34,096 nucleotides of DNA from Nitrospinota bacterium (GTDB taxonomy: Bacteria; Nitrospinota; Nitrospinia; JACRGO01), in NCBI GenBank assembly GCA_016212295.1, contig JACRGO010000174.1, positions 1-34,096 on the forward strand, read 5' to 3'. Positions 4,700 to 30,111 of this stretch are shown here, piece after piece; positions within the stretch are counted from its first letter, which is position 1, and every line of letters starts with the position of its first letter. A model generated the notes under the pieces. That model was not told where the DNA came from. It saw only the letters and a list, made by a program, of their open reading frames with translations, and searched no databases. A program made the position numbers and the translations under genes.

Positions 4700-4845
4700 C
4701 ATTCCAGTGACAAGTGGCGAGGGGCTTCCGCCCTCCGCCTTCTGTCCTCTGCCCTCTGCCCCCTGAACCCTGAACCCTGAACCCTGAACCCTGACAATTA
4801 ACAAGTTTCAATTGTCAATTGTCAATTGAAAATTGTCAATCGTAA
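4700..4845. repeat. CCCTGAA tandem heptamers plus ATTGTCAATTG units
   Basis: A CT-rich stretch (tctgtcctctgccctctgcc) leads into four perfect CCCTGAA units and a fifth ending in C (4761-4795), then CAATTGTCAATTGTCAATTG-type units. The CT-rich/CCCTGAACCCTGA combination recurs near 8091-8120 and inverted near 7676-7710. The 3' end overlaps the coding end of the response regulator. Confidence 0.75.
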
Positions 4846-5305
4846 ATCGTAAATGCTCAATCACTTCTCCCATTGACCCTGGGCACTTCGACCACTGAGA
4901 GAAACAGGCCAATTGCCGGATGGCATAGACGAACTTATCGTAATCCACTGGCTTGACCAGGTAGTTGCTGCATCCAAGTTTGTGGCAGTTTTCCACTTCC
5001 CTTGGGTCGTCAGTGGTGGTGATCATTATAACAGGCATCTTGCGGAGTTCCACGTCCTCCTTGACCTGCCGCAAGACCTCCACTCCATCGACCTTCGGCA
5101 TGCGGATGTCGAGCAGCAAAAGGTATGGAGAGTTCTGCTCACGGCGCTTTCCCTCGCCCCTCCGGAACAGGAAATCCAGGACCTGCTGCCCGTCCTCAAA
5201 ATGCAGGATAGGATTGGAAATACCCGAGCGCGCCAGGTTCTTTTGTATCAGGGCCGCATGGCCGGCGTCATCCTCCGCTATAACGATACGCACTTCCTTT
5301 ATCAT
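4808..5305 (-). CDS. Rcp1-like single-domain response regulator
   Basis: A receiver-only protein of 165 residues: acidic pair EDD (11-13), phospho-acceptor Asp66 in LLLLDIRMPK, Thr in MITTTDD and Lys118 in LVKPVDY. The insertion between beta strands 2 and 3 (FRRGEGKRREQNSP) is typical of the Rcp1 group, which receives phosphate from kinases with a phytochrome-type transmitter. There is no output domain, so it would act by protein contact or as a phosphate sink. The start has a strong GGGAGGAG seven bases upstream. The last residues (TIDNFQLTIDN) are encoded by dispersed repeat DNA, so the original stop was probably lost. The sensor kinase just upstream (135 bases, with a repeat in between) is the likely partner. 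Confidence 0.87.
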   Translation of the reverse strand: MIKEVRIVIAEDDAGHAALIQKNLARSGISNPILHFEDGQQVLDFLFRRGEGKRREQNSPYLLLLDIRMPKVDGVEVLRQVKEDVELRKMPVIMITTTDDPREVENCHKLGCSNYLVKPVDYDKFVYAIRQLACFSQWSKCPGSMGEVIEHLRFTIDNFQLTIDN

Positions 5306-5325: not shown

Positions 5326-5436
5326 AATTGGTCATTAGTCATTGGTCAATTGTCATTGGTCAATTTAGGGGCCTTCCTGCTACCAATGACCAATGACCAA
5401 TGACTATTGACCAATGACCAATGACTATTGACTATT
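5326..5436. repeat. Inverted TCATTGGTC repeat with core, copy 1
   Basis: Left arm of TTGGTCATTAGTCATTGGTCAA units, core around 5365-5383 (TTAGGGGCCTTCCTGCTA), right arm of CAATGACCAATGACTATTGACC units. It would form a long imperfect hairpin. The same architecture occurs at 7507-7577, 12760-12865 and 18787-18857. Confidence 0.8.
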
Positions 5437-8160: not shown

Positions 8161-10191
8161 TCAAAAATCCTTGAAGTCCTGGTCGTCTCCCATTGGGATC
8201 ACGTCCTCTGGTTTCACCATCGTGCGTTTGGATGCCGGAATCGCGCGAGGTTTATTTTTTTGTCCGCCGCCTTGGTGGAGCATGCCATGGACGCGTTCCT
8301 TCACGCCGTGGTCTTCCGCGCCTTTCAGGCGAAAAGGCTCCCTGCCAGTGATTCTTTTCATTGGCCTGCCGCCGCCCCGGTCTTCCCTGGCCCCGACTAG
8401 ATTGACCAGGAGGTCCACCATCTCGTTCAACTCCACCGCCTGGGCGGAGAGTTCCTCGCTGGCCGAGGCCGACTCCTCGGCGCTTGCCGCGTTTGATTGG
8501 GTCACCTTGTCCATCTGGGCCACGGCTGTGTTGATCTGTTCAATGCCGTTTGCCTGCTCATCGCTGGCGGTGGAAACATCCGCCACCAACTGGGTCACGG
8601 TCTGAACGCCTTCTATGATCTGTTTGAGTATCCCGGCCACCTCAGTGGAAACCGATACCCCGTTATCAGCGTTTTTCTGGGAATCCTCTATAAGCTCAGA
8701 GGTGGTTTTGGCCGCTCCGGCGCTGCGCTGCGCCAGGTTCCTTACCTCTTCGGCAACCACGGCGAAGCCCTTGCCCGCTTCCCCTGCCCTTGCCGCTTCC
8801 ACTGCCGCGTTCAGGGCCAGGAGATTGGTCTGGAAGGCGATTTCATCAATGGTTTTAACTATCTTGGCTGTCTGGTCGGAAGAGGTCTTGATCTTGGATA
8901 TGGCGCCGGACATCCGCTCCATCGCCTCCCTGCTTCTTTCCACGGCCTCGCGGACCGTGCCCGCCTTGCGGTTGGCCTCCTTGGCGTTCTCAGCGTTCCT
9001 CTTGGTCATTGAGGTAAGCTCCTCAAGGGAAGACGAGGTCTCCTCCAGGGAAGAGGCCTGCTCGCTGGCGCCTTCCGCCATCTGCTGGCTGGACTGGGAC
9101 ACCTGGTTTGCGGCGGATGAGACCTGCTCCGAGCCGGAGGTCAATCCGTCAATGATTTTATTGACGGGCCTGGTGATCCCGATGGTGATGAAGAAGGCAA
9201 GGAGGCAGCCGATAATGACGGCGGTTATCAGGCCGATGATCATGGTGGTGGAGGCCAGGGAAAGGGACTCCACCGCTTCAGTGGCTATCTTCTTGGTTTG
9301 TTCTATGCCTGCGTCAGTCGTGTCCATGGCGATTTTTGACAAGGTTTCCGTGGCCATGCGGAGTTTTTCCGCTACCTCCTGCAATTTGCCCTGGTTTTCC
9401 AAAAGGGACTTCAGTGAATCGTTGTAGTCGTGTGCGGCCTTACGGATGTTCTCGATCTCGTCCAGGTTTTGCTTCTGGGTGGTGAGGGCCTTTGTCCGGT
9501 CGAGCGTTTCATCGATCTTATTGAAATTGGGAAGGGCGTCCATGATGAATTGCTTGTCGCGCCTTGCCGCGGCCTTGAAGTTGCCGATGCGGATTGCGTT
9601 GCCGTAGTCTATGACGTCATTGATCCATGTCACTTTATTGTGTCTTTGCAGGAGTTTTTCAGAGTCAGCCTTGGAACCAATTTCGTCTTCCATTGCCTTA
9701 TTCTGGTGTTCCAGGAAAGCATAAACGTTTTTATTAAAAGCCTCGGCCGCGGAATCAAGGGAGCGCCTGTTGCCGTCTATTTTATTTTCAATGGCCACTG
9801 TTTCTTCCACAAGGGCGTTGTACTCCTGGTAAGCCTTCTGGGCTTCCCCTATCTGGGCCTTGAGTTTGACAAGCGCAGGATACTTTTGGGAAAGGGCCTC
9901 GGCTTCATCCAAGTATTTCTTCGTGACTGTAAGTTTTTCCTTGGCCGCGGCAAGCTCCTTGTCGTCGCTGGTGAAAGTGAAGCCCCGCATTGCGTAAGCG
10001 GTTTCAAGGAAGTTTTTTTGCACTTCAGTGGCAAGATCCACCTCAGGCACGTACTCAAAAGCCAGCCTCTCGGACTGCCCTTCCACGCTCCCCATCTTCA
10101 AGATCGCCACGCTTCCCAGGGCAAGCATGATTGCTATCAACGCCCCAAAGCCCGATCCTATCTTAGTCCCCAGTTTCATGTCCTTGAACAT
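8161..10191 (-). CDS. Methyl-accepting chemotaxis protein
   Basis: A 676-residue chemoreceptor. TM1 (about 12-32) and TM2 (about 316-338) bracket an all-helical periplasmic domain of about 280 residues, long enough for a helical bimodular (HBM-type) sensor rather than a single four-helix bundle. A short HAMP start ([12 protein letters not shown]) leads into the signalling hairpin with [20 protein letters not shown] and [17 protein letters not shown] at the CheA/CheW-binding tip. Q/E-rich pairs on either side are potential methylation sites. The C-terminus is basic and low-complexity, ends [10 protein letters not shown], and is not a canonical NWETF-like tether. A strong AAGGAGGA precedes the ATG. 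No che or flagellar genes are in the window, so it is an orphan receptor here; its ligand is unknown. Confidence 0.93.
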
Positions 10192-10210
10192 ATTTTTATC
10201 CTCCTTTTTT

Positions 10211-10247
10211 TAGTCATTGGTCATTAGTCAATGGTCATTGGCCTTTT
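10211..10247. repeat. Partial TCATTGGTC repeat
   Basis: TTAGTCATTGGTCATTAGTCAATGGTCATTGGCC, one arm of the inverted-repeat family without its core or second arm, just upstream of the chemoreceptor Shine-Dalgarno. Confidence 0.6.
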
Positions 10248-12759: not shown

Positions 12760-12865
12760 AGTCATTGGTCAATAGTCATTGGTCATTGGTCAATAGTCAT
12801 TGGTCATTAGGGAGTCTTCCTGCTTACCAATGACTATTGACCAATGACCAATGACCAATGACTAT
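12760..12865. repeat. Inverted TCATTGGTC repeat with core, copy 3
   Basis: Left arm of (GTCATTGGTCAATA)n-type units, core TTAGGGAGTCTTCCTGCTTA (about 12807-12826), right arm of (CCAATGACTATTGACCAATGA)-type units. It is the longest and most regular copy, able to form a long hairpin. It sits between the diheme lipoprotein stop and the permease gene. Confidence 0.85.
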
Positions 12866-13344
12866 CATGGCCGCCACTTGATTGTTCCGGTGGGTGGGGC
12901 GTAACCGCTGAAGGAGGTCCCGCCTGGAACATGGCACCGGTTGCAACTCTTCCATTGCGGAAAGACGTGCAGGGTGGTGGAGGGCCGCACTACCCCGACC
13001 TCGCCCGCGTACATCATGAAGTTCCCGGAAATTCGGGCGGTGGTGTAAAAATTCCCCTTGCCGTCGGTTTTAGGAAGGGAATGTATCCTGTTGCCGGGAA
13101 TTTGCATCATGTTGATCTGGACCCCTTGGGCCCTGGACATGCCTTTGAAGTCGTTATAAACGCTGCCGGCCGCCCCGTACCCTTGATGGCAGCCTGACTG
13201 CATGCAATCAGGGTATCCGGCATGGATGTCGGAGAGGAACTGGTTGGAGGCCCCGCCTTTTTCGTTCGTGCAGGACGCGGCGAAAACTCCCGCGCACAGG
13301 AGAAGAAGTGAAAAGGCAAGAAGCCTGGCGGATTTTCGTTTCAT
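12865..13344 (-). CDS. Secreted diheme c-type cytochrome, likely lipoprotein
   Basis: A 159-residue exported protein. A basic start (MKRKSAR) and hydrophobic stretch lead to FAASC, a plausible lipobox with Cys25, although SPase I cleavage is possible. Two covalent heme sites are visible: C47-MQSG-C52-H53, an atypical CX4CH, and C134-NR-C137-H138, a standard CXXCH. The segment between (GKGNFYTTARISGNFMMYAG) resembles the start of a beta-sandwich. The start at 13344 is set by GAGG eight bases upstream; an ATG two codons earlier is too close. It follows the DUF3570 gene by 10 bases, so the pair is surely co-transcribed, placing a heme protein with the outer-membrane barrel. I cannot match it to a named cytochrome family. 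Confidence 0.8.
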   Translation of the reverse strand: MKRKSARLLAFSLLLLCAGVFAASCTNEKGGASNQFLSDIHAGYPDCMQSGCHQGYGAAGSVYNDFKGMSRAQGVQINMMQIPGNRIHSLPKTDGKGNFYTTARISGNFMMYAGEVGVVRPSTTLHVFPQWKSCNRCHVPGGTSFSGYAPPTGTIKWRP

Positions 13345-13354
13345 TTTCATGTCC

Positions 13355-14485
13355 TCAAAATTTAAACGTGAGCCCGGCCTGGTACAGGTTGTAATTGAAG
13401 CCGGTGTTCTGGTAATACCTGTCCCATACAAAATCCACTTCCGCGCCCTTGAATATATTTCCAGTGAAAATTTCATCGGCGAAGTCCGTTATGTCGTAAA
13501 TGAACTTCACGCCGAAGAGATTGGCCTGGATATTCTTCATCCGCCCGTCCCAGGTGGTGTATTGTTGTCCCGGCATGGGGCTGTCGTACCAGAAGAAGGC
13601 GGCCGACTGGTCATAATAGCGGTACCTCAGCCTGAGAATCAATTCATCCGAGAGGTACTGGTACAGCTTTACCCCCATGTCATGGGACCTGACGTCCCAA
13701 TCGTCGAAATAGTAGCGGTAAGTCAGGTGCACCGCCGAGCGGGTTGGCACGATGTATTGGTTTAGCCTGAAAATCGCGGCGTTGCGGCCCCTGTCGCGGG
13801 GATGGCGTTCCTCGGCGTACGTGCCGTCGGAGAGTCCCACCACGTTTTGAGAAGAGCCCATGTATCCCCGGACATCAAGGTAGTTATAGCCAACGGCGGC
13901 AATGGTCGTGCGGGAGAGTATCTGTGAAAAGGAGATAGTGTAGGAGTCGGTTTTTCTGTCTTGGGGAAAGCCTCGCGTGTCGCCCTTCTTGGTGGTGTCT
14001 ATGCTGTCGGAATTGTGGGCATAGACAAGATTAAGCGTGGTGTTTTTATTGAACATCTCCTGGGCCGCGGAGAGGTATCCGTACTTGGAATTATAATCGT
14101 TTTCCCCGCTGTAGCCGAACCCGAAGTCAAAGGTGGTGAGACGCTTGAAGAGATAGGAAAAGCCGAAATTCCCCTCGGTCCGCCTCTCCATTTCAGCGTT
14201 GGGGCTGGCGGTGGTGACCGCGTCTATCCTCCTGGACGCGGCGGAAATTGCGTCAAGGGAAGCCTTGACGTGGAGGGTCAGGTTGTCCGAGAGCCTTTTG
14301 GTTAGGAGCAGCGTGGGGGAGTGGACCGTTATACCGTCGGTGTTGTTGAAGTAGATGCTGCGGTTATCGGAATAGTAACTATATTTTATGGTGGCCTTGT
14401 CTTCCTCAACTGCCCATGTCTTAAGAATAGCAAGTGAAAGCAGGAAGAAGACGGCAAGGAAGAAAAAAAGTTTTTTTTTGGGCAT
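13355..14485 (-). CDS. DUF3570 outer-membrane beta-barrel protein
   Basis: A 376-residue precursor with a clear signal peptide (KKK, then FFFLAVFFLLSLAILKTWA). The mature part consists of alternating aromatic/polar strands (YKYSYY-like, FGFSYLFKRL, TYRYYFDDWD, LRLRYRYYDQSA) and ends LYQAGLTFKF, a terminal-Phe barrel signature. I recognise it as DUF3570, a family found beside DUF4266 lipoproteins. Function is unknown; a pore or scaffold in the outer membrane is likely. The start chosen is 2 bases after the DUF4266 stop, giving a normal signal peptide; a longer in-frame extension is arginine-rich and comes from the shadow of the DUF4266 gene. The next gene is the diheme lipoprotein. Confidence 0.82.
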   Translation of the reverse strand: MPKKKLFFFLAVFFLLSLAILKTWAVEEDKATIKYSYYSDNRSIYFNNTDGITVHSPTLLLTKRLSDNLTLHVKASLDAISAASRRIDAVTTASPNAEMERRTEGNFGFSYLFKRLTTFDFGFGYSGENDYNSKYGYLSAAQEMFNKNTTLNLVYAHNSDSIDTTKKGDTRGFPQDRKTDSYTISFSQILSRTTIAAVGYNYLDVRGYMGSSQNVVGLSDGTYAEERHPRDRGRNAAIFRLNQYIVPTRSAVHLTYRYYFDDWDVRSHDMGVKLYQYLSDELILRLRYRYYDQSAAFFWYDSPMPGQQYTTWDGRMKNIQANLFGVKFIYDITDFADEIFTGNIFKGAEVDFVWDRYYQNTGFNYNLYQAGLTFKF

Positions 14486-14487
14486 GT

Positions 14488-14721
14488 TCAATTGCATCCG
14501 CAGCCGCCGGCGGCGATGCCGTAACCCCCGACGCTTCCCTCGCGTCCGGCGAAGATATGTTGCTCCTCCATGAGTTCCACGCTGTCGCCATCGTCGAACT
14601 GCATGATCCTGTCCGCCAGGTATTCCCGCTGGAACGGGTCCACAACGGCGCAACCGGCAAGGAGGGCCAGGCACAAAATCGCGGCGCAGCCTGGCAGTAT
14701 TTTTTTCTTAAGGAATTCCAT
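14488..14721 (-). CDS. DUF4266 small lipoprotein, Cys-rich end
   Basis: A 77-residue exported lipoprotein. The signal peptide ends in LALLAGC, a textbook lipobox. The mature part reads DPFQREYLADRIMQF, then EQHIFAGREGSVGGYG and a C-terminal GGCGCN with two cysteines. The YLAD-rM-F and GG-G-GGGCGCN pattern is that of DUF4266. In other genomes this family is typically followed by DUF3570, as here, often with thioredoxin-like and ApbE-like genes nearby (from memory). The cysteine pair is a candidate for a redox or metal site. The start at 14721 has GGAG nine bases upstream; an ATG five codons earlier lacks one. It is tightly linked to the barrel gene. Confidence 0.82.
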   Translation of the reverse strand: MEFLKKKILPGCAAILCLALLAGCAVVDPFQREYLADRIMQFDDGDSVELMEEQHIFAGREGSVGGYGIAAGGCGCN

Positions 14722-14762
14722 GCGCTTAAACTCCATGGCGCGGTTTAACCGCGGCCAAAAGA

Positions 14763-14865
14763 AAAACAAAATCCCAAATGACAAATAGCAAATTACAAAT
14801 AAATTACAAATTACAATTCCTTATTGAGATTTATTTGTTATTTGACTATTGCGATTTTGAGCTTC
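14763..14865. repeat. AAATGACAAAT/ATTTGTTATTTG inverted repeat
   Basis: AATCCCAAATGACAAATAGCAAATTACAAAT is followed by ATTTATTTGTTATTTGACTATTGCGATTTTGAG, an imperfect inverted repeat. Related text occurs at 11232-11285 and 26578-26605. It separates the DUF4266 gene from the upstream cytochrome gene. Confidence 0.6.
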
Positions 14866-14918
14866 AAGGGAAAACATTATGCCATTTTCCCCAGTGGATT
14901 ATCAATGCCGGAATGCAA

Positions 14919-15974
14919 TCATTTGGACAACTGTATATCCAATGATGAGACGTTGCTCTGGTTCATCTGATAATCCTGGGTGTAGGCCTGGTATCCCTTT
15001 TTAGCGGCTTTTACCGTATAACTCCCCGCCTTCACCTTTTTAATGGTGAAGCTTCCTCGCGCATTGGTGTTGGCGCTGTACATTTTCCTTCCGCTCTGCC
15101 ATAGCTCCACGGTGGCCCTGGACACCACGGCCCCCGAAGTGGAGGTCTGGCCGGTGGAAAACTCCTGCGCGTTGTATTTGACTATCCAGTCGCTGATTTT
15201 TTGGAAGTCGGCCTGATTGTTAAGGTATGGCCACATGGTCCCTATTCCCAGGCTTTGGGTCAACTTTCTGATCATGAGGGACGTGTCGAGGCCCGGGGTG
15301 ACAAGGTTTGAAGCCGTGGCATAGGCGTAAGTGGTCAAGGGGGACACGGACCTGGCTCCTCCTGGTTTATGGCATACGTTGCACTTGGCCGAGAAAATTT
15401 TCTTGATGTCGTTTGTGTAGCTTATTTCAGTGGAGGTCCCGCCGGACGCGGCTTCCGTGACCGTGCCGGTGAGGGGGAGATCGTTCGTGCCAACGAAGAC
15501 CCTTCCCACCCTTCCCGTGATATGGCAGTTCACCGCGTTGCAACTGCCGTGCTGCGCCAGGGTAAGCATCTTTACTTCACGGCCCTGATAGGAAACGGAA
15601 ACGGTATAGGGATAGGTTATTGTCCCATATTTTGTCCGCTGGTAGATGTTGCCAATGCTGTCCGAGGCCAAAGTGATGGTTTTCTTGTTAGCATCAACAA
15701 TTTTTACCGTGGCCCCTGTTAATTTTGCCAAGCCGTCAGGGTCCATGTAAACCGTCCCTCCAACCGTAAACGGCTTCTCCCCGCCGGTTGAGGGATGGCA
15801 TCCGCTTGCCATGCAGTCCTGGCCCGCCTTGTGGGTAGAATCGTCTCCTCCTTCACCTCCGCCCCCATTTTCTCCATTTTCGCCGAAAGCAGTTTGAATT
15901 CCTACAGCCAGGAACGCCAGCAAGACCAAAAATGCAAGCGTCCCTTTAAATTTTCCTGATTTAGCGTTTTTCAT
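14919..15974 (-). CDS. Triheme cytochrome c with C-terminal Ig-like domain
   Basis: A 351-residue exported protein. Signal peptide about 1-31, then a Gly/Glu-rich linker. Heme sites: C54-MASG-C59-H60 (CX4CH), C145-NAVN-C150-H151 (CX4CH) and C198-NV-C201-H202 (CXXCH). The region after the first site (GGTVYMDPDG... VSVSYQGREVKML) looks like a beta-sandwich. The third heme opens a cytochrome-c-like module (YTNDIKKIFSAKCNVCH... MWPYLNNQADFQKISDWIV), similar to the modules in planctomycete-type cytochromes. The C-terminal 75 residues form a carboxypeptidase-regulatory-like domain (TNARGSFTIKKVKAGSYTVKA). AAGGAGG lies upstream of the ATG, 12 bases after tlpA. It is paralogous to the cytochrome at 18871-19872. 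Likely periplasmic or surface electron carrier. Confidence 0.83.
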   Translation of the reverse strand: MKNAKSGKFKGTLAFLVLLAFLAVGIQTAFGENGENGGGGEGGDDSTHKAGQDCMASGCHPSTGGEKPFTVGGTVYMDPDGLAKLTGATVKIVDANKKTITLASDSIGNIYQRTKYGTITYPYTVSVSYQGREVKMLTLAQHGSCNAVNCHITGRVGRVFVGTNDLPLTGTVTEAASGGTSTEISYTNDIKKIFSAKCNVCHKPGGARSVSPLTTYAYATASNLVTPGLDTSLMIRKLTQSLGIGTMWPYLNNQADFQKISDWIVKYNAQEFSTGQTSTSGAVVSRATVELWQSGRKMYSANTNARGSFTIKKVKAGSYTVKAAKKGYQAYTQDYQMNQSNVSSLDIQLSK

Positions 15975-15986
15975 GATGCGCCTCCT

Positions 15987-16502
15987 TTATTTTGCCAGGG
16001 CTTCTTCTATTTGTTTTGTGATCTCCGGGATATGCGACTCCTCAAAGCCGGTCCTGGGATCGTAGGCTATTTTGCCGTCCTTTCCGATTACTACGGAAGC
16101 CGGTATGCCGACCATTTCATATAGGTCCCTTACCTTTTTCTCAGGATCAAAGAGAACCGGGAATTCCGGCTCTTTCCCATCCATTTTCTTCTTGAAGAAT
16201 TTTTCTATGTTTTTCTTCTGGTCGTCCACGCTCACGGCCACCACCACGAAACCCTTGTCCTTATATTTGGCATAAGCATCCATCAGGAAAGGCATTTCCT
16301 TTGCGCAGGGAGGACACCACGAGGCCCATACGTCCAGAAAAATCACTTTCCCGGCAAAGGAACTCAATTCCACTGGATTTCCCTTCATGTCCTCCAATTT
16401 AAAGTTTGCGTAGTTGTCCCCCTTCCCAAGGGCAAGGGCGGACGTGGACAGGGAAAACAAAACCGCGAGAGAAAAAAAGCCTGCCGCTAATACTTTATTC
16501 AT
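15987..16502 (-). CDS. TlpA/ResA-like periplasmic thioredoxin
   Basis: A 171-residue thiol-disulfide oxidoreductase. N-terminal signal or anchor helix (residues 5-25), thioredoxin fold with C63-PP-C66 in WASWCPPC, and a cis-proline in VGIPAS. The longer insert between the fold's halves (DDQKKNIEKFFKKK) is typical of TlpA/ResA proteins. Such proteins reduce apocytochrome heme-site cysteines or copper-site proteins, using electrons from DsbD or CcdA. With dsbD upstream and a triheme cytochrome 12 bases downstream, its job is probably keeping cytochrome CXnCH thiols reduced, or serving the DUF4266 cysteines. GGAGGAA lies four bases before the ATG. Confidence 0.9.
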   Translation of the reverse strand: MNKVLAAGFFSLAVLFSLSTSALALGKGDNYANFKLEDMKGNPVELSSFAGKVIFLDVWASWCPPCAKEMPFLMDAYAKYKDKGFVVVAVSVDDQKKNIEKFFKKKMDGKEPEFPVLFDPEKKVRDLYEMVGIPASVVIGKDGKIAYDPRTGFEESHIPEITKQIEEALAK

Positions 16503-16559
16503 GAGATTCCTCCAAATTAAGGTTAAAGGCGAAAGGTAAAGGGTGAAAGGCTATCAAAA

Positions 16560-16735
16560 GATATTTCAGATTTCAGATTTTAGATTGGAAGAATATAAAA
16601 ACAAAATATCCTGTGCATCCTGTCTATCCCTGTTAAATTTTCTTTGGCAGGGATGGACAAGATAGGCAGGATAAAGATGAAAAGAAAAATCTACCACAAA
16701 TCTGAAATCTAAAATCGCAAATCTAAAATTAATTT
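16560..16735. repeat. Nested AGATTTCAGATTT and CCTGTCTATCCCTG inverted repeats
   Basis: Outer arms ATTTCAGATTTTAGATT and AATCTGAAATCTAAAATCGCAAATC enclose inner arms ATCCTGTGCATCCTGTCTATCCCTG and CAGGGATGGACAAGATAGGCAGGAT. The outer family recurs at 23405-23500. It lies between dsbD and tlpA. Confidence 0.75.
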
Positions 16736-16760
16736 CATCGGTTCTTATCGCCTGCCGTTT

Positions 16761-18743
16761 TTATTTCGCTGTTTCAATCATTTTCTTCATGGTATTCACA
16801 GCGTCGTACTGGGTCCCCTTCCAGAAAAATCCGCCATCAGGCCTCAGGATCACAAAAAAGGGAAGCCCGGTTTTAAGTTCGGCGTATTTGGGGTCTTCCT
16901 GGAATTTTTTAAATATTTCATCGGTATCGTAAATTTTCAATAGAACAGCCTTTTGCAATGCCTGATTCAATTCATCATTGCTCAAGGACAGCTTCTTGAA
17001 CGCTATGCAGTTGGCGCACCAGTCCGCGTAAAAATCAATGAATACCGGCTTCTTTTCCTTCATTGCCAGGGCCTTGGCCTTTTCCAGATCGCGCTGCCAG
17101 ACCAGATTCCCATGTTTTTCCGTCCCTTCCCCTTCTCCCGCGCCGGTGGTGGAAACTATCCGCGCCGACCCGTTAGGCTCAAGGAGAAGGCCGGACTGGC
17201 CTAATCCGTTAAAAAAGAAATGAAAGCCGAATATGAAAAGAATTACAGAGAACGCTTTTTTAAGTTTTTCGTTGGGGCCGCCTTTATCCACCCAGGGGGC
17301 CAGGAGTCCCATGTATATGGAGGCGAAAATCGATACGACCCCAAGCAAGACCCCGTAAGCCACCTCGGGCTTGACCCTGGCCACGCCCATTCCCTTCATG
17401 TAATAGGAGAAAGCGAAGTACAGGATGGCGAATCCAAGGATGTATTTCACGTATATCATCCAGGTCCCGGCCCTGGGCATTTTATTGCTGAATAGTCCCA
17501 CCAAAAGGAAAGGTATGCCTATGCCTATCCCGAAGCCTCCCATCAATAGGCCGCCTTTCCCGGCGATCAAGGATTTTTGAAGCGGAGAGATGACCTGTCC
17601 GGCCGCCACCAGTTCCGCGCTGAATTCCGCGATCCGGTTCGCCACCTGCAGGAGCAGGGCGAACACCACAGGCCCAACGCATGGGGAGACCACCAGGCCG
17701 GCCACCATTCCCATGAGGAAGGTGCCTGTGTATCCTGCCTTTGAGCTCACCGTGGAGTCTATTTTGGCGGTGAAATCCTGGCCGAGGGCGAAATCATAAA
17801 ACCCAAGCATGGAAAGGGCGAAGAGGGCGAAGAAAACCGCGAAAAGAAGGTTCACCGCCGCGCTCCGCATGATGGTGTTCAAGGCGCCGCCCGTCATGCC
17901 CGCCACGTATCCCATGACAATATAGGTGAGGATGATTCCCGTGAAATAAAGGAGTGAGTGCCTGACCCCCTCCTCCCTGGAACCGCCGCCTCTTTGAACG
18001 AGAATAGCGGAGGTTATTGGCAGCATTGGATAGACGCATGGAGTCGCGGCGGACAGCAGACCCGCGAGGACCATGAATAGAAAGGATATTATTATATTTC
18101 TGGAGTATTGCCTGTATTTCCCCAGGAGCCATCCGGTTGCGCCCTCTCCATCAGCTTCCTGGGCGGTTTCAACAGGGGCGCTGACTTGAGCGGATTTTTG
18201 GGTTGTCCCGGCTTTTACGGAGCCGCCCTCCTTTCCCCCAGCAAGGGAGACGGGCAGGGAAAGCGAGGCGGTTTGGGGGGGGAGGCATATATTGGTCACG
18301 TCGTTGCAAATTTGTGTCTGGACCAATATAGGGAAACTTTTGCTTTCAGCCGGGGCGCCGGACGCTTCAACGGAGAACTTATATTCGCCCTTGCCGCGGA
18401 GGACTGTTGCCTTTACCTTTTCCTCCCTTTCGCCTTCCGGGCTTTTTAATGTATTGACCTTATAGCCGCCTTTTTCCAACTCAGTGAAGTCGAATTCGAT
18501 TGGGAGAAAGAACCCTTCATCACCGCTGTCAATGTAGGCGTGATGATCATCCGGCACAACCAGCCGGACCGTGAAATCCGCCTTTGAGCCTGGCTCGACC
18601 TCGATTTTCGGCTCCAAAAGTTCTAATTGAACCTGAGGGGATGCTTTGGCGTGGCTCAGGATAGGATGGCGCGCCGCAACAAGAAAAAACAACAGGGAAA
18701 GCGCTGCCATGAAAACGGCCTTATTTTGCCGGTGGAAAATCAT
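16761..18743 (-). CDS. dsbD: Thiol:disulfide interchange protein DsbD
   Basis: A complete 660-residue three-module DsbD. The N-terminal periplasmic alpha domain holds C146 and C153 (ICNDVTNICLPP). The eight-TM beta domain has C236 in TPCVYPMLP and C355 in SPCVGPVV. The C-terminal gamma thioredoxin domain has C576 and C579 in YADWCANC. It carries electrons from cytosolic thioredoxin across the inner membrane to periplasmic thiol proteins such as the TlpA-like protein encoded next. The start was set at MIFHRQ (GGAG 12 bases upstream); an upstream ATG gives an N-terminus translated from repeat DNA. All six redox cysteines are present. Confidence 0.94.
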   Translation of the reverse strand: MIFHRQNKAVFMAALSLLFFLVAARHPILSHAKASPQVQLELLEPKIEVEPGSKADFTVRLVVPDDHHAYIDSGDEGFFLPIEFDFTELEKGGYKVNTLKSPEGEREEKVKATVLRGKGEYKFSVEASGAPAESKSFPILVQTQICNDVTNICLPPQTASLSLPVSLAGGKEGGSVKAGTTQKSAQVSAPVETAQEADGEGATGWLLGKYRQYSRNIIISFLFMVLAGLLSAATPCVYPMLPITSAILVQRGGGSREEGVRHSLLYFTGIILTYIVMGYVAGMTGGALNTIMRSAAVNLLFAVFFALFALSMLGFYDFALGQDFTAKIDSTVSSKAGYTGTFLMGMVAGLVVSPCVGPVVFALLLQVANRIAEFSAELVAAGQVISPLQKSLIAGKGGLLMGGFGIGIGIPFLLVGLFSNKMPRAGTWMIYVKYILGFAILYFAFSYYMKGMGVARVKPEVAYGVLLGVVSIFASIYMGLLAPWVDKGGPNEKLKKAFSVILFIFGFHFFFNGLGQSGLLLEPNGSARIVSTTGAGEGEGTEKHGNLVWQRDLEKAKALAMKEKKPVFIDFYADWCANCIAFKKLSLSNDELNQALQKAVLLKIYDTDEIFKKFQEDPKYAELKTGLPFFVILRPDGGFFWKGTQYDAVNTMKKMIETAK

Positions 18744-18786
18744 ATTTTCTTTTATCTCCAGGAAGGTGGTGGAATTTATAGCCTTT

Positions 18787-18857
18787 GCGAAGTCATTGGT
18801 CAATAGTCATTGATAAGCAGGAAGACACCTAGTGACCAATGACTAATGACTTCGCCA
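18787..18857. repeat. Inverted TCATTGGTC repeat with core, copy 4
   Basis: GCGAAGTCATTGGTCAATAG, core in opposite orientation (GATAAGCAGGAAGACACCTAG, 18812-18832), then ACCAATGACTAATGACTTCGC. The arm ends are complementary, so the whole unit folds as a hairpin. It lies between dsbD and the first triheme cytochrome. Confidence 0.8.
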
Positions 18858-18870
18858 GGCATTAATTTAA

Positions 18871-19872
18871 CTACCGCTTTTTTAAACTCAAATCCAATGT
18901 CGTGCGGTTATTTGGGTCCATCCTGAAGGTTTGTGTTGAAGTATCATAACCTTTTTTGGAAATAGCCACATTATAATCGCCGGCCTTTACTTTTTTCAGA
19001 ATAAAATTTCCATTTCTGTTGGTATAGCCTTGATACTTGACAATCCTCCCTTGTTTAAGCTTGACCTCCGCGTCAGGAACCGGTCCGCCTACATTGGAAG
19101 TGGAAAGTTCCAGGCAATTCTGATTTACAATCCAATCGCGAATGGTTTGCAACTGCTTCGCGTCGTTAAGATATGGCCACATGGTGCCTAATTGCGAACC
19201 TTTGTCAAGTTTCTGGATTAAAAGAGAATCGGCGCTTCCTGGAGTCAGCATGGCGGGGGCCGTCACATCCGCGTAACTGGCTAAAGGGGAGACGCTCCTT
19301 GCCCCATTGGATTTATGGCATATAACGCACTTTGTGTCAAATATCGGCTTTATGTCCTTATCATAACTTATTTCCCCGGTATCCACCCCTGCCTCCATCA
19401 CCGAACCAGTTAAGCTGTAATCCCTTGCTGGTATGAACACCTTCCCGGGTTTTCCCGCCGCCGGAATATGGCATCCATCATTGTTGCAGCCTCCATAAGC
19501 TGCCTTGGCATTCATGAATAATTCACGGCCCTGGTACGCCACGGAAACCTGTAAAGGCGGCGTCATATTTTCATAGAGCCGGAAATTCCCCACCCGGTTT
19601 GAATACAGAGACGCCTTTACTCCCATCGCGTCAGTGATCTTGATCAATGCCCCTTCCAACGGAATAGATACTCCTTTGTCCAGGTAGATGGTGCCTGCGA
19701 CTGAAAACTTGTTTCCATGGCAGCCCTTGCAATCCTGTCCGGCATTATGAAACTCATTGCCGCAACTTTCAGCAAAAACCTGTTGGGATGCAATTCCAAG
19801 GATCACGGCAAAAAACAGGAAAAGGGAAAAAACTTTATGCGGAAAAACGGGTTTGAATCTGTTCTTGTTCAT
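18871..19872 (-). CDS. Triheme cytochrome c with C-terminal Ig-like domain (paralogue)
   Basis: A 333-residue exported protein, same design as the one at 14919-15974. Signal peptide to about residue 35 (QQVFA), heme sites C48-KG-C51-H52, C129-NNDG-C134-H135 (CX4CH) and C182-VI-C185-H186, then a DWIV-ending cytochrome-like module (SYDKDIKPIF... MWPYLNDAKQLQTIRDWIV) and a carboxypeptidase-regulatory-like domain (TNRNGNFILKKVKAGDYNVAISKKGYD). The first site is CXXCH here but CX4CH in the paralogue. The ATG was chosen for GAGG six bases upstream. The duplication suggests two partners or two positions in one electron chain. The name of the family is not known to me. Confidence 0.83.
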   Translation of the reverse strand: MNKNRFKPVFPHKVFSLFLFFAVILGIASQQVFAESCGNEFHNAGQDCKGCHGNKFSVAGTIYLDKGVSIPLEGALIKITDAMGVKASLYSNRVGNFRLYENMTPPLQVSVAYQGRELFMNAKAAYGGCNNDGCHIPAAGKPGKVFIPARDYSLTGSVMEAGVDTGEISYDKDIKPIFDTKCVICHKSNGARSVSPLASYADVTAPAMLTPGSADSLLIQKLDKGSQLGTMWPYLNDAKQLQTIRDWIVNQNCLELSTSNVGGPVPDAEVKLKQGRIVKYQGYTNRNGNFILKKVKAGDYNVAISKKGYDTSTQTFRMDPNNRTTLDLSLKKR

Positions 19873-19931
19873 TTTAGACCTCAAAAATTTGTTTATTTTT
19901 GTGCAACGCCTTTTCCAGTTTAAATTAAAGA

Positions 19932-20027
19932 ATAGAACACGGATAACGCCGATGTAACGGATTTTCGCGGATAAAACTTCTTTTAATCCGTGATAATCAG
20001 CACAATCCGTGTCATCAGCGTTCTATT
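19932..20027. repeat. ACGCGGATNACACGG-type inverted repeat, copy 1
   Basis: ATAGAACACGGATAACGCCGATGTAACGG, then TAATCCGTGATAATCAGCACAATCCG and TCATCAGCGTTCTAT. The family recurs at 25110-25217. Its end overlaps the stop codon of the SUMF1-fold gene. Confidence 0.75.
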
Positions 20028-20958
20028 TAGACATGGCGCATCGGAATCCTATGTCGGATTTTCTGACGTCGGCTGGATCATTGCATCGATTTGAAACCCT
20101 TACCCTGAATTGGTCGTATTTCCAGGAGCCTCCGCGGGGCGTGAAGGAATCACTCGAGGTTGGAGGGACATGCCCCTTTTCGTTGTGGTTGGAGTACGAG
20201 GTTTCTGAGTATAGGTCCCCGGTCCACTCGAAGACGTTTCCCACCATGTCATACGCGCCGTAAGGGCTCTTCCCATTTTCAAAGCTTCCCACTGGGGCCG
20301 TGAATTTGTAGCCGTCGGCCGCGGAGTTCGCGGCTGGATTGTAATTGGCCCGGTAAACGCCCCCTTCGTCAGGGGCTTCATTTCCCCAGGAATACAGTCT
20401 CCCGTCCGAGGCCCCCCTTGCGGCCTTTTCCCATTCCGCTTCGGTGGGAAGCCTCTTGCCTTGGGAAGCGCAATAAGCCTCGGCTTCATATTTCGCCACC
20501 CCGACCACGGGGGTATTATCTTGATTTGAAAAACGGTCTTTTGAATATGCAAGGTCGGCCTTTCCCCAGAAAAGGGGACGGTCAATCTTATATTTTTCCT
20601 TCCATGCCCAGCCGTCCTTGGACCAGTATTCCTTCTTTTCATAGCCGCCGTTTTTCCTGAACTCCTGGAATTGGGCGTTGGTCACTTCATACTTATCGAT
20701 ATAAAAGGCGTCCAGATAGTGGGTATGCTGGGGCATTTCATCAGGTTCGCCCTCTCCCTCCTTGCTTCCCATGGTGAAGTTTCCCGCCGGAACGGTTACC
20801 ATTGCCTCCATGGCATTGCCTTTACTGGATTTTTTTGCCTTTCCTTTGTTTTGAGCGGCCTTTGCCGGTTTTTCCCCGGCATGGGCGAAATCATAACTAT
20901 TAAAGGAAAGGTAAAAGAGGGATAAAAATAAAAGGGATAAAAAGGCGTATTTTTTCAT
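20023..20958 (-). CDS. Secreted SUMF1/FGE-fold protein, non-catalytic
   Basis: A 311-residue exported protein of the formylglycine-generating-enzyme sulfatase-modifying fold. Signal peptide 1-27 (AHA cleavage), a Lys-rich linker, then the fold: VPAGNFTMGS, IDKYEVTNAQF, RLPTEAEWEKAARG, YSWGN, GAYDMVGNVFEWTGD, PRGGSW and GFRCA. In true FGE a pair of cysteines follows the RGGSW segment. Here that stretch reads KYDQFRVRVSNRCNDPAD and lacks the pair, so sulfatase activation is unlikely. Such domains also serve as ligand-binding or accessory modules. It heads the redox gene series, 150 bases ahead of the first cytochrome, with an intervening repeat. Its role is unknown. Confidence 0.86.
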   Translation of the reverse strand: MKKYAFLSLLFLSLFYLSFNSYDFAHAGEKPAKAAQNKGKAKKSSKGNAMEAMVTVPAGNFTMGSKEGEGEPDEMPQHTHYLDAFYIDKYEVTNAQFQEFRKNGGYEKKEYWSKDGWAWKEKYKIDRPLFWGKADLAYSKDRFSNQDNTPVVGVAKYEAEAYCASQGKRLPTEAEWEKAARGASDGRLYSWGNEAPDEGGVYRANYNPAANSAADGYKFTAPVGSFENGKSPYGAYDMVGNVFEWTGDLYSETSYSNHNEKGHVPPTSSDSFTPRGGSWKYDQFRVRVSNRCNDPADVRKSDIGFRCAMSK

Positions 20959-28603: not shown

Positions 28604-29794
28604 TCAATCCTTGGCACAACGAACGCTGGACCCGAAGCTCATGGTACCGCTACTTCTGTACACGATGCCGTCGCCGTAGTACAGGTCACGGCGCCACGCG
28701 CCCGCTGAAGAGTATCCCGTAGCCGACCACAAGAAACCGTAGTAGCCCACGTTGCTGAACGTCCCGTTTCTGTGGCGGTAACCACCCGGAAGAGCTGTAA
28801 ATCCGCTGCTGTTGTCAGCTCCTGTATTTGGGCTAGCCCAATGAGTTGTTCCGGCTTCTTTCATCTTGCCGCCAGCCACGCTGCTGCCTCCAAGATAGTT
28901 TTCAAGCGTTGTCCATTCAGAATCGGTAGGCAAATGCCAGCCTGCAGGGCACAGGCCTCTGCTGTCAGTTGCCGCATGCCAGGTATATAAGCGGCCGTAA
29001 ATAGAGGCATTGCTTTCAGTTGCATTATACGCCCACTGGTACTTCGGCGAGGTCTCGGCTGAAATATCCGCTGTGGTAGTGGGAATGGCAGTGCCGTCGC
29101 GGTATTTAGTTACTTTAAGGTTCTCTTTCATCCATGTCTGCGCGCCTATGGTAACCGTATTGTAAACATTGCCGTCAATGTCGGTTACTGTAATATTACC
29201 AGTAGTCGTAGCAGAAATAGCATATGTTTCCGCCTTCACTGTCTCGGTGTTCCCATTCACGTCCACGCTGAAGTATTTCAAGATCGTGGTTGCGGAGATG
29301 GTTATTGGAGTTGCATAAACAGTTGAAAGAGTTGAGGGAGTTGAACCGTCCGTGGTGTAAAAGGTTTGGTAGCACCCGGAGCCGGAATCGGAACATGTTA
29401 GAGTGACCGATTGGGCAGAGGTGAAACTGCCGCCTGAGGGCGAGGCGGTGGTGGCCGGGGCCGTGGTATCGGAAGTAGTGGTTCCTCCAGTGTTGCCGCC
29501 GGACGTAGCCCCGCCTGACGTTCCACCGCCCGTTGAACCTCCGGTGGTTCCGCCCGTTGAACCTCCGCTGCTACTCCCGCCTGTGGAACCACCAGTCGTT
29601 CCGCCGCTTGTGGAACCGCCGGAACTGCCGCCACCGCCGGATGTGTCAACGCAGCCCGCGCTCGATTTGCACTTCATGTAAAGATTCATGTCAATAAACT
29701 CACCCTTATATTCCATCTTTTTCACATTATTTTGATACCCGGACTTTTTGGTGGTTATCGTGTATTTGCCGGATTTCATTCCTGAAAAAAACAA
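28604..29794 (-). CDS. C-terminal part of split surface protein, CHB_HEX-like and FISUMP
   Basis: Open from a TTG at 29794 for 396 residues. In order: the second half of a carboxypeptidase-regulatory-like domain (FSGMKSGKYTITTKKSGY, about 1-40), CKSSAGC, a Gly/Ser/Thr linker (about 52-108), a CHB_HEX_C-like domain (YTTDGSTPS... KYFSVDVNGN, 108-190) and a FISUMP domain (TVTIGAQTWMKENL, GLCPAGWHLPTDSEW, GGYRHRNGTF, SSVRCAKD, 197-396). Frame and domain structure show it is the continuation of the upstream piece at 29776-30111: DDGFYCF plus SGMKSGKY restores the DG-Y-F-GMK-GKY motif. The TTG is therefore not a natural start. Likely an outer-surface or secreted protein. Confidence 0.75.
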   Translation of the reverse strand: MFFSGMKSGKYTITTKKSGYQNNVKKMEYKGEFIDMNLYMKCKSSAGCVDTSGGGGSSGGSTSGGTTGGSTGGSSSGGSTGGTTGGSTGGGTSGGATSGGNTGGTTTSDTTAPATTASPSGGSFTSAQSVTLTCSDSGSGCYQTFYTTDGSTPSTLSTVYATPITISATTILKYFSVDVNGNTETVKAETYAISATTTGNITVTDIDGNVYNTVTIGAQTWMKENLKVTKYRDGTAIPTTTADISAETSPKYQWAYNATESNASIYGRLYTWHAATDSRGLCPAGWHLPTDSEWTTLENYLGGSSVAGGKMKEAGTTHWASPNTGADNSSGFTALPGGYRHRNGTFSNVGYYGFLWSATGYSSAGAWRRDLYYGDGIVYRSSGTMSFGSSVRCAKD

Positions 29795-30111
29795 TAAAAC
29801 CCGTCGTCTTCCGAATACTCGGTTAAAAGCTTTTGTCTTCCATTGCGCAGCCTCGCCTGCAGCTTGGCGTTAGCGACCTCGGTTTTTTCCTTATAGTCCA
29901 GAACAAACCCGGAAATGCCGCATTCATCAGCCGCAAGAGAGGCGGTTGACGGTTCCCGGTTCCCGGTTTCCAGTGGAGTTGAAAATTTAGCCCTATGGCG
30001 GCTTTTTTTGCCAGCCGCTTCCGACGAGCCAAGAAAGCAGGAGACGGCATACACAGCGCATATAGCGCAAATGAAAATAAACGCCTTTGTGAAGAATTTT
30101 TGCATAGACAT
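29776..30111 (-). CDS. N-terminal part of split surface protein
   Basis: 111 residues: signal sequence with Ala/Cys-rich core (KAFIFICAICAVYAVSC), a basic linker, then the first half of a carboxypeptidase-regulatory-like domain (CGISGFVLDYKEKTEVANAKLQ) that breaks at DDGFYCFFQE when a run of seven T residues shifts the frame. GAGGAGG lies seven bases before the ATG. It and the piece at 28604 were one gene; slippage at the homopolymer (adding one T or losing two) would join them. It may be phase-variable, decoded by slippage, or a sequencing or decay artefact. Confidence 0.75.
   Translation of the reverse strand: MSMQKFFTKAFIFICAICAVYAVSCFLGSSEAAGKKSRHRAKFSTPLETGNREPSTASLAADECGISGFVLDYKEKTEVANAKLQARLRNGRQKLLTEYSEDDGFYCFFQE

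Follow-up and report, generated by a model that had tools for sequence, protein, structure and literature searches.

An open reading frame check of the window (the whole stretch of 34,096 nucleotides analysed here) confirmed a run of eight genes for exported or membrane proteins, all on the minus strand at 12865-20958. From 5′ to 3′, they encode an exported SUMF1/FGE-fold protein of 311 aa (20023-20958; Pfam FGE-sulfatase 1.9e-64), a predicted exported triheme c-type cytochrome (triheme 1, upstream; 18871-19872), a full-length DsbD-type thiol-disulfide transmembrane reductase (16761-18743; DsbD_TM 8e-37, with a C-terminal Thioredoxin_7 domain carrying WCANC), a TlpA/ResA-like periplasmic thioredoxin with WCPPC (15987-16502; AhpC-TSA 5e-27), a second predicted exported triheme c-type cytochrome (triheme 2, downstream; 14919-15974), a DUF4266 lipoprotein (14488-14736; PF14086 6e-16), a DUF3570 protein (13355-14485; PF12094 8e-41) and a diheme lipoprotein (12865-13350).

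The block is made of two tight groups, TlpA-triheme 2 and DUF4266-DUF3570-diheme, within this co-oriented run. With refined starts, 12 bp separate TlpA from triheme 2 and 2 bp separate DUF4266 from DUF3570, and the gap from DUF3570 to the diheme gene is 4 or 10 bp, according to which start codon is used, in line with the joints of 12, 2 and 10 bases reported before. Since the remaining gaps measure 127-258 bp, the run is not one proven operon: DUF4266 starts 182 bp past the triheme 2 gene, and the SUMF1/FGE gene lies about 150 bp from the next one. Every NCBIfam match of the SUMF1/FGE protein fell far under its cut-off, and we are unsure of its membership in the redox system. Promoter-like and terminator-like sites showed no excess over chance in a scan of the locus. 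Contamination or a foreign contig is unsupported, as the locus has 50% GC and a tetranucleotide correlation of 0.93-0.96 with stretches of its own genome, compared with 0.34-0.63 between the same own-genome stretches and loci of four other genomes.

The three heme proteins are predicted to be exported c-type cytochromes from their conserved heme-attachment motifs. Triheme 1 carries CKGCH, CNNDGCH and CVICH, triheme 2 carries CMASGCH, CNAVNCH and CNVCH, and the diheme lipoprotein carries CMQSGCH and CNRCH, so that four of the eight motifs are CX4CH instead of CxxCH, a point unstated in the earlier note. Both trihemes have hydrophobic N-termini, and the CxxCH and CX4CH motifs are conserved across homologs. 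Triheme 1 consists of a diheme N-terminal domain, a class I-like heme domain and a CarboxypepD_reg domain, the last of these forming the C-terminal domain of both trihemes in Pfam. The two are paralogous, with 44-48% identity; together with Pfam and the heme motifs, this bears out the protein identities first proposed for the locus. The diheme lipoprotein has no Pfam match and a conserved Ser-Cys lipobox column, and is a stand-alone third copy of the triheme N-terminal domain (6.8e-28 against profile A1, in which the diheme protein is itself a row). In the shared domain, an invariant His precedes the first heme motif by six residues, a near-invariant Met precedes the second, and there is a GTVY...GNFY core. 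The structure model of a triheme was weak (pLDDT 68, pTM 0.35), and a sequence search of solved structures gave weak heme-domain matches only, to 4rlr (PccH-like cytochrome, 0.0011) and hydrazine synthase alpha (0.008).

The cytochromes are the unusual part of the locus, whereas the DsbD/TlpA/DUF4266/DUF3570 core is of an already known kind. Published DsbD clusters typically combine ApbE, DUF3570, a thioredoxin-like protein and DUF4266 (Meheust et al. 2021, PMC8238504); among 285 of them, DUF3570 was present in 227 and DUF4266 in 221 (PMC8238504). The DUF3570 of Chlorobium luteolum was flavinylated experimentally by its own ApbE at two [S/T]GA[S/T] motifs, and the CXC tail of DUF4266 may cycle redox (PMC8238504). 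The DUF4266/DUF3570 pair had been described in the earlier note as lacking a known function; instead, DUF3570 has been shown to be flavinylated at two sites by ApbE and belongs to a published DsbD/thioredoxin/DUF4266 cluster (PMC8238504).

By homology, the core of the window is a member of this DsbD-type DUF3570 flavinylation system, not a complete published cluster. The flavinylation clusters of the source paper are defined by ApbE (PMC8238504), which is absent from the window, so the claim of membership rests solely on the remaining components being homologous. Both DsbD and a thioredoxin-like protein are encoded, within 4.3 kb on one strand, and a DUF4266 gene directly upstream adjoins DUF3570. 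The DUF4266 protein ends in GGCGCN, with a Cys-Gly-Cys (CXC) motif at 14494-14502; this tail is the same as in the sampled homologs, and the motif is common to those of Bacteroidota. Two flavinylation-like motifs in DUF3570, both altered, may be a further likeness to the published clusters. The window differs from them in that ApbE lies outside the locus, other residues take the place of the motif glycines, three c-type cytochrome genes lie among the core genes, and an AhpC-TSA-type TlpA stands in for the common Thioredoxin_7 protein. In NCBIfam, DsbD scored 213 bits, below the cut-off of 330, and the best match of TlpA was ResA, with 118 bits and also under cut-off.

We sampled DUF4266 neighbourhoods from Bacteroidota, where the gene was found in 112 of the 396 genomes of the phylum and in 17 of the 149 genomes of one class. 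Two main layouts were seen: Thioredoxin_7-ApbE-DUF4266-DUF3570 and TlpA-DUF4266-DUF3570-ApbE-DsbD. Loci with the second order (L071-L077) are read as Chlorobia from motif type and gene order. They share with the window the TlpA type, the DUF4266-DUF3570 order, a DsbD and the DUF3570 branch, but their DsbD is downstream with ApbE, and none of those sampled encodes a cytochrome of the window's diheme family. In a tree of 49 DUF3570 sequences, that of the window falls in a branch of 12 rows with the TlpA-type, Chlorobia-read set and L078, L079, L086 and L087 (support 100/100), on a branch so long (2.12) that its exact place is unsure. The closest sampled DUF3570s have 26-27% identity to it, and a genome search found one DUF3570 in the whole genome.

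The DUF3570 protein is predicted with confidence to be an outer-membrane-type beta-barrel, as had been proposed. The AlphaFold model, made with an alignment of 27 rows, has 16 strands, a mean pLDDT of 85.2 and a pTM of 0.80. Foldseek matched it to many outer-membrane porins and receptors (E 1e-9 to 1e-7, query TM 0.33-0.56), with no MtrB-type match among the 50 matches listed, and a sequence search of solved structures found no related one.

Two putative flavinylation sites, DAISAAS (residues 78-84; 14234-14254) and DAVTTAS (residues 88-94; 14204-14224), occupy the flavinylation-motif columns of ApbE-linked DUF3570s in alignment A2, where Ala83 and Ser84 are near-invariant over 27 sequences. 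The motif Gly is replaced at both sites (SAAS, TTAS), and Asp, Ala and the acceptor Ser are retained. ApbE-linked DUF3570s commonly have Ser at the Gly position (SSAS, TSAS); three loci with a neighbouring ApbE also have the window's variants, SAAS in L078 and L079 and TTAS in L056. Another ApbE substrate kept about 50% flavinylation after a Gly-to-Ala change in its motif (PMC12052999). Because the same variants occur in ApbE clusters and such a change leaves flavinylation at that level, flavin attachment at the altered sites is plausible, not proven. In the model, both sites fall in a single loop between strands 3 and 4 (flavin loop residues 81-99; low confidence at 84-96). On the opposite side of the barrel, the turns have 2-4 residues, save one of 17. 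General barrel rules, with the N-terminus assumed to be periplasmic, would place the flavin loop on the long-loop side, which normally faces outward.

No ApbE gene was found in the window, and the earlier note had treated this as a distinguishing trait. However, the genome has two ApbE genes on other contigs, C30 and C138. The C138 protein has no hydrophobic N-terminus and groups with ApbEs of the Chlorobia-read DUF3570 loci (100/100); the C30 protein has a lipoprotein-like N-terminus and groups with those of L078, L079 and L088 (89/87). The tree held these two and DUF3570-linked ApbEs only, so the groupings speak of kinship in type and not of substrate. Another possible substrate of the two ApbEs is the FMN-bind subunit of an RNF cluster that the genome also encodes.

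Co-occurrence of cytochromes with DUF3570/DUF4266 had been put forward as a check and was found to recur in other lineages, although the cytochrome family itself is mostly unlinked. The Bacteroidota locus L055 (genome G203) is one of the closest known systems, with a homologous diheme lipoprotein 9 bp before a complete Thioredoxin_7-ApbE-DUF4266-DUF3570 cluster; it differs in having a single diheme protein, an ApbE, a Thioredoxin_7 protein for TlpA and no DsbD in the fetched neighbourhood. Elsewhere, a diheme gene lies beside DUF4266 or TlpA (L078), a cytochrome with 12 heme motifs lies 15 bp before TlpA (L079), a diheme protein with an HZS_alpha domain is encoded 9 bp before DUF4266 (L086/L087), and a Haem_bd gene directly follows DUF3570 (L097). 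Unrelated cytochromes adjoin DUF4266 in loci of the DUF3570s closest to that of the window. Across 52 loci, heme proteins were encoded by 7 of 120 co-oriented genes up to three genes from DUF4266 and by 5 of 391 farther off (Fisher p = 0.009), an enrichment that is suggestive only: L086 and L087 are near-copies, L073 contributes a gene with one CxxCH at a distance of three genes, and the counting rule was fixed with the loci already known. In 45 of the 52 sampled clusters, there was no heme gene within three genes.

The diheme domain has seven copies in the genome, three of them in the window and one each at C233, C131, C138 and C33, with no DUF3570 near any of these last four. Strong matches to the domain occurred in six of the 396 Bacteroidota genomes, and none of the six has DUF4266. 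The closest outside triheme (53% identity) belongs to a MAG labelled Planctomycetota, in which no DUF3570 was found, and DUF4266 was found in none of 75 genomes of that MAG's class. Among the 77 genomes of the window's own phylum, no other one had DUF4266 or the diheme domain, and this includes the only further genome sampled from the genus. A plasmid search gave two distant Hymenobacter DUF3570s and no triheme copy. The earlier note had made its module depend on linkage of these genes in related genomes; since most members of the cytochrome family lie away from DUF3570, at the four other loci of this genome and in Bacteroidota, and the closest outside triheme sits in a genome where DUF3570 was not found, a fixed cytochrome-DUF3570 module is rejected. 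We read the cytochromes as a recurrent, optional add-on to the DUF3570 system.

Overall, the locus is probably a form of the published DsbD-type DUF3570 flavinylation system for electron transfer that is wired to cytochromes. Judging from its family, DsbD would take electrons from cytosolic thiols through the inner membrane and hand them to the TlpA-like thioredoxin, and TlpA, the CXC tail of DUF4266 or both would pass them to the DUF3570 barrel. One or both Ser motifs of the barrel may bear an FMN, put in place by an ApbE from another part of the genome. Gene order and recurrence suggest that the trihemes and the diheme lipoprotein would trade electrons with this thiol/flavin relay, either in the periplasm or at the outer membrane, and could link it to another acceptor or donor. 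A path from DsbD through TlpA to DUF4266 and flavinylated DUF3570, with the hemes as next carriers, is the most economical mechanism.

The main rival is cytochrome c maturation, with DsbD and TlpA as ResA/CcdA-like reductants for the adjacent apocytochromes and DUF4266-DUF3570 as an independent flavinylated neighbour. The best NCBIfam match of TlpA, to ResA, fits this reading, as does its spacing, tight against the triheme 2 gene with DUF4266 starting well beyond that gene, and most sampled DUF3570 clusters have a Thioredoxin_7 protein, not TlpA. Yet TlpA lies directly 5′ of DUF4266 in the Chlorobia-read set, with a 4 bp overlap, and L079 has the order 12-heme cytochrome-TlpA-DUF4266-DUF3570. 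Moreover, the nearest sampled relatives of the window's TlpA are the TlpA of L079 and others encoded beside DUF4266, and these are closer to it than two further TlpAs from the same genome as the window, on weak branch support. We consider the maturation reading unlikely, though not negligible.

MtrCAB-type porin-cytochrome conduits have a large 26-strand barrel that sheathes a multiheme cytochrome, with quinol input. A trans-outer-membrane flavo-heme conduit that is functionally similar, with FMNs in outward DUF3570 loops and the diheme protein and trihemes leading to an extracellular acceptor, seems doubtful, more so than maturation. The window also encodes a barrel together with exported cytochromes, among them a heme lipoprotein next to the barrel, and the flavin loop, after strand 3, is on the side that faces outward in standard barrels. 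But that side is assigned from general barrel rules, the structural matches are generic porins and receptors, and the window differs from MtrCAB in its predicted 16 strands with covalent-flavin motifs (vs. 26), its few hemes (3, 3 and 2) and its DsbD thiol input. It is equally doubtful that the thiols of DsbD, TlpA and DUF4266 reduce FMNs in an outward DUF3570 loop, with the small heme proteins carrying electrons onward; if true, electron export would draw on the thioredoxin pool of the cytosol and not on quinol. Electron export to the outer surface from this locus is possible and unproven.

The DUF3570/DUF4266 system is common, given the share of sampled Bacteroidota genomes with DUF4266 (112/396). 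Three exported heme proteins amid this known, little-studied redox gene set suggest that the system can be wired to cytochromes. Loci joined to cytochromes, in the window and separately in other lineages, suggest an electron partner that can be tested, and the barrel model, where a single loop on the side of the long loops holds both putative flavin sites, makes the surface location of covalent flavins a question that can be asked directly.

Intergenic gaps of the window carry heptamer-type repeats (ATTGGTC / CAATGAC, also TCAATTG) that form short inverted arrays at 4808-4862, 5327-5432, 10210-10239 and 12760-12862, and one of these arrays directly follows the diheme lipoprotein gene. Elsewhere in the window, two overlapping ORFs that are read in different frames, one for an exported N-terminal part (29776-30111) and a long one for the C-terminal part (28604-29794), look like a single protein. 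They are probably split by a frameshift, which would be either genuine or an assembly error.

A further paralog of the cytochrome family was found on contig C33 of the same genome, in a gene run (L022:253-7335) whose other products include a pair of TlpA-like proteins, one that resembles a porin and one that is Cys-rich and helix-bundle-like; this run is perhaps a metal-handling cluster.

At the DUF3570 loci of other genomes, several Bacteroidota clusters (L043, L045, L083, L084, L102, L108, and L109) present a small Rieske-type protein gene upstream, mostly immediately before the thioredoxin-like gene or ApbE, and its product is a possible additional electron partner for these clusters. At L079, the locus with a 12-heme cytochrome, an exported NusG_II-domain protein (8224-8880) is encoded between DUF3570 and ApbE.

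ApbE is normally a lipoprotein that is exported. Among the ApbEs encoded beside DUF3570 (loci L042-L110), 27 of 46 lacked a strongly hydrophobic N-terminal segment, taking the longest ORF as the start and a hydrophobicity cut-off of 2.0, with one ApbE at 1.99. Many DUF3570-linked ApbEs therefore look cytosolic; flavinylation of DUF3570 might precede its export.
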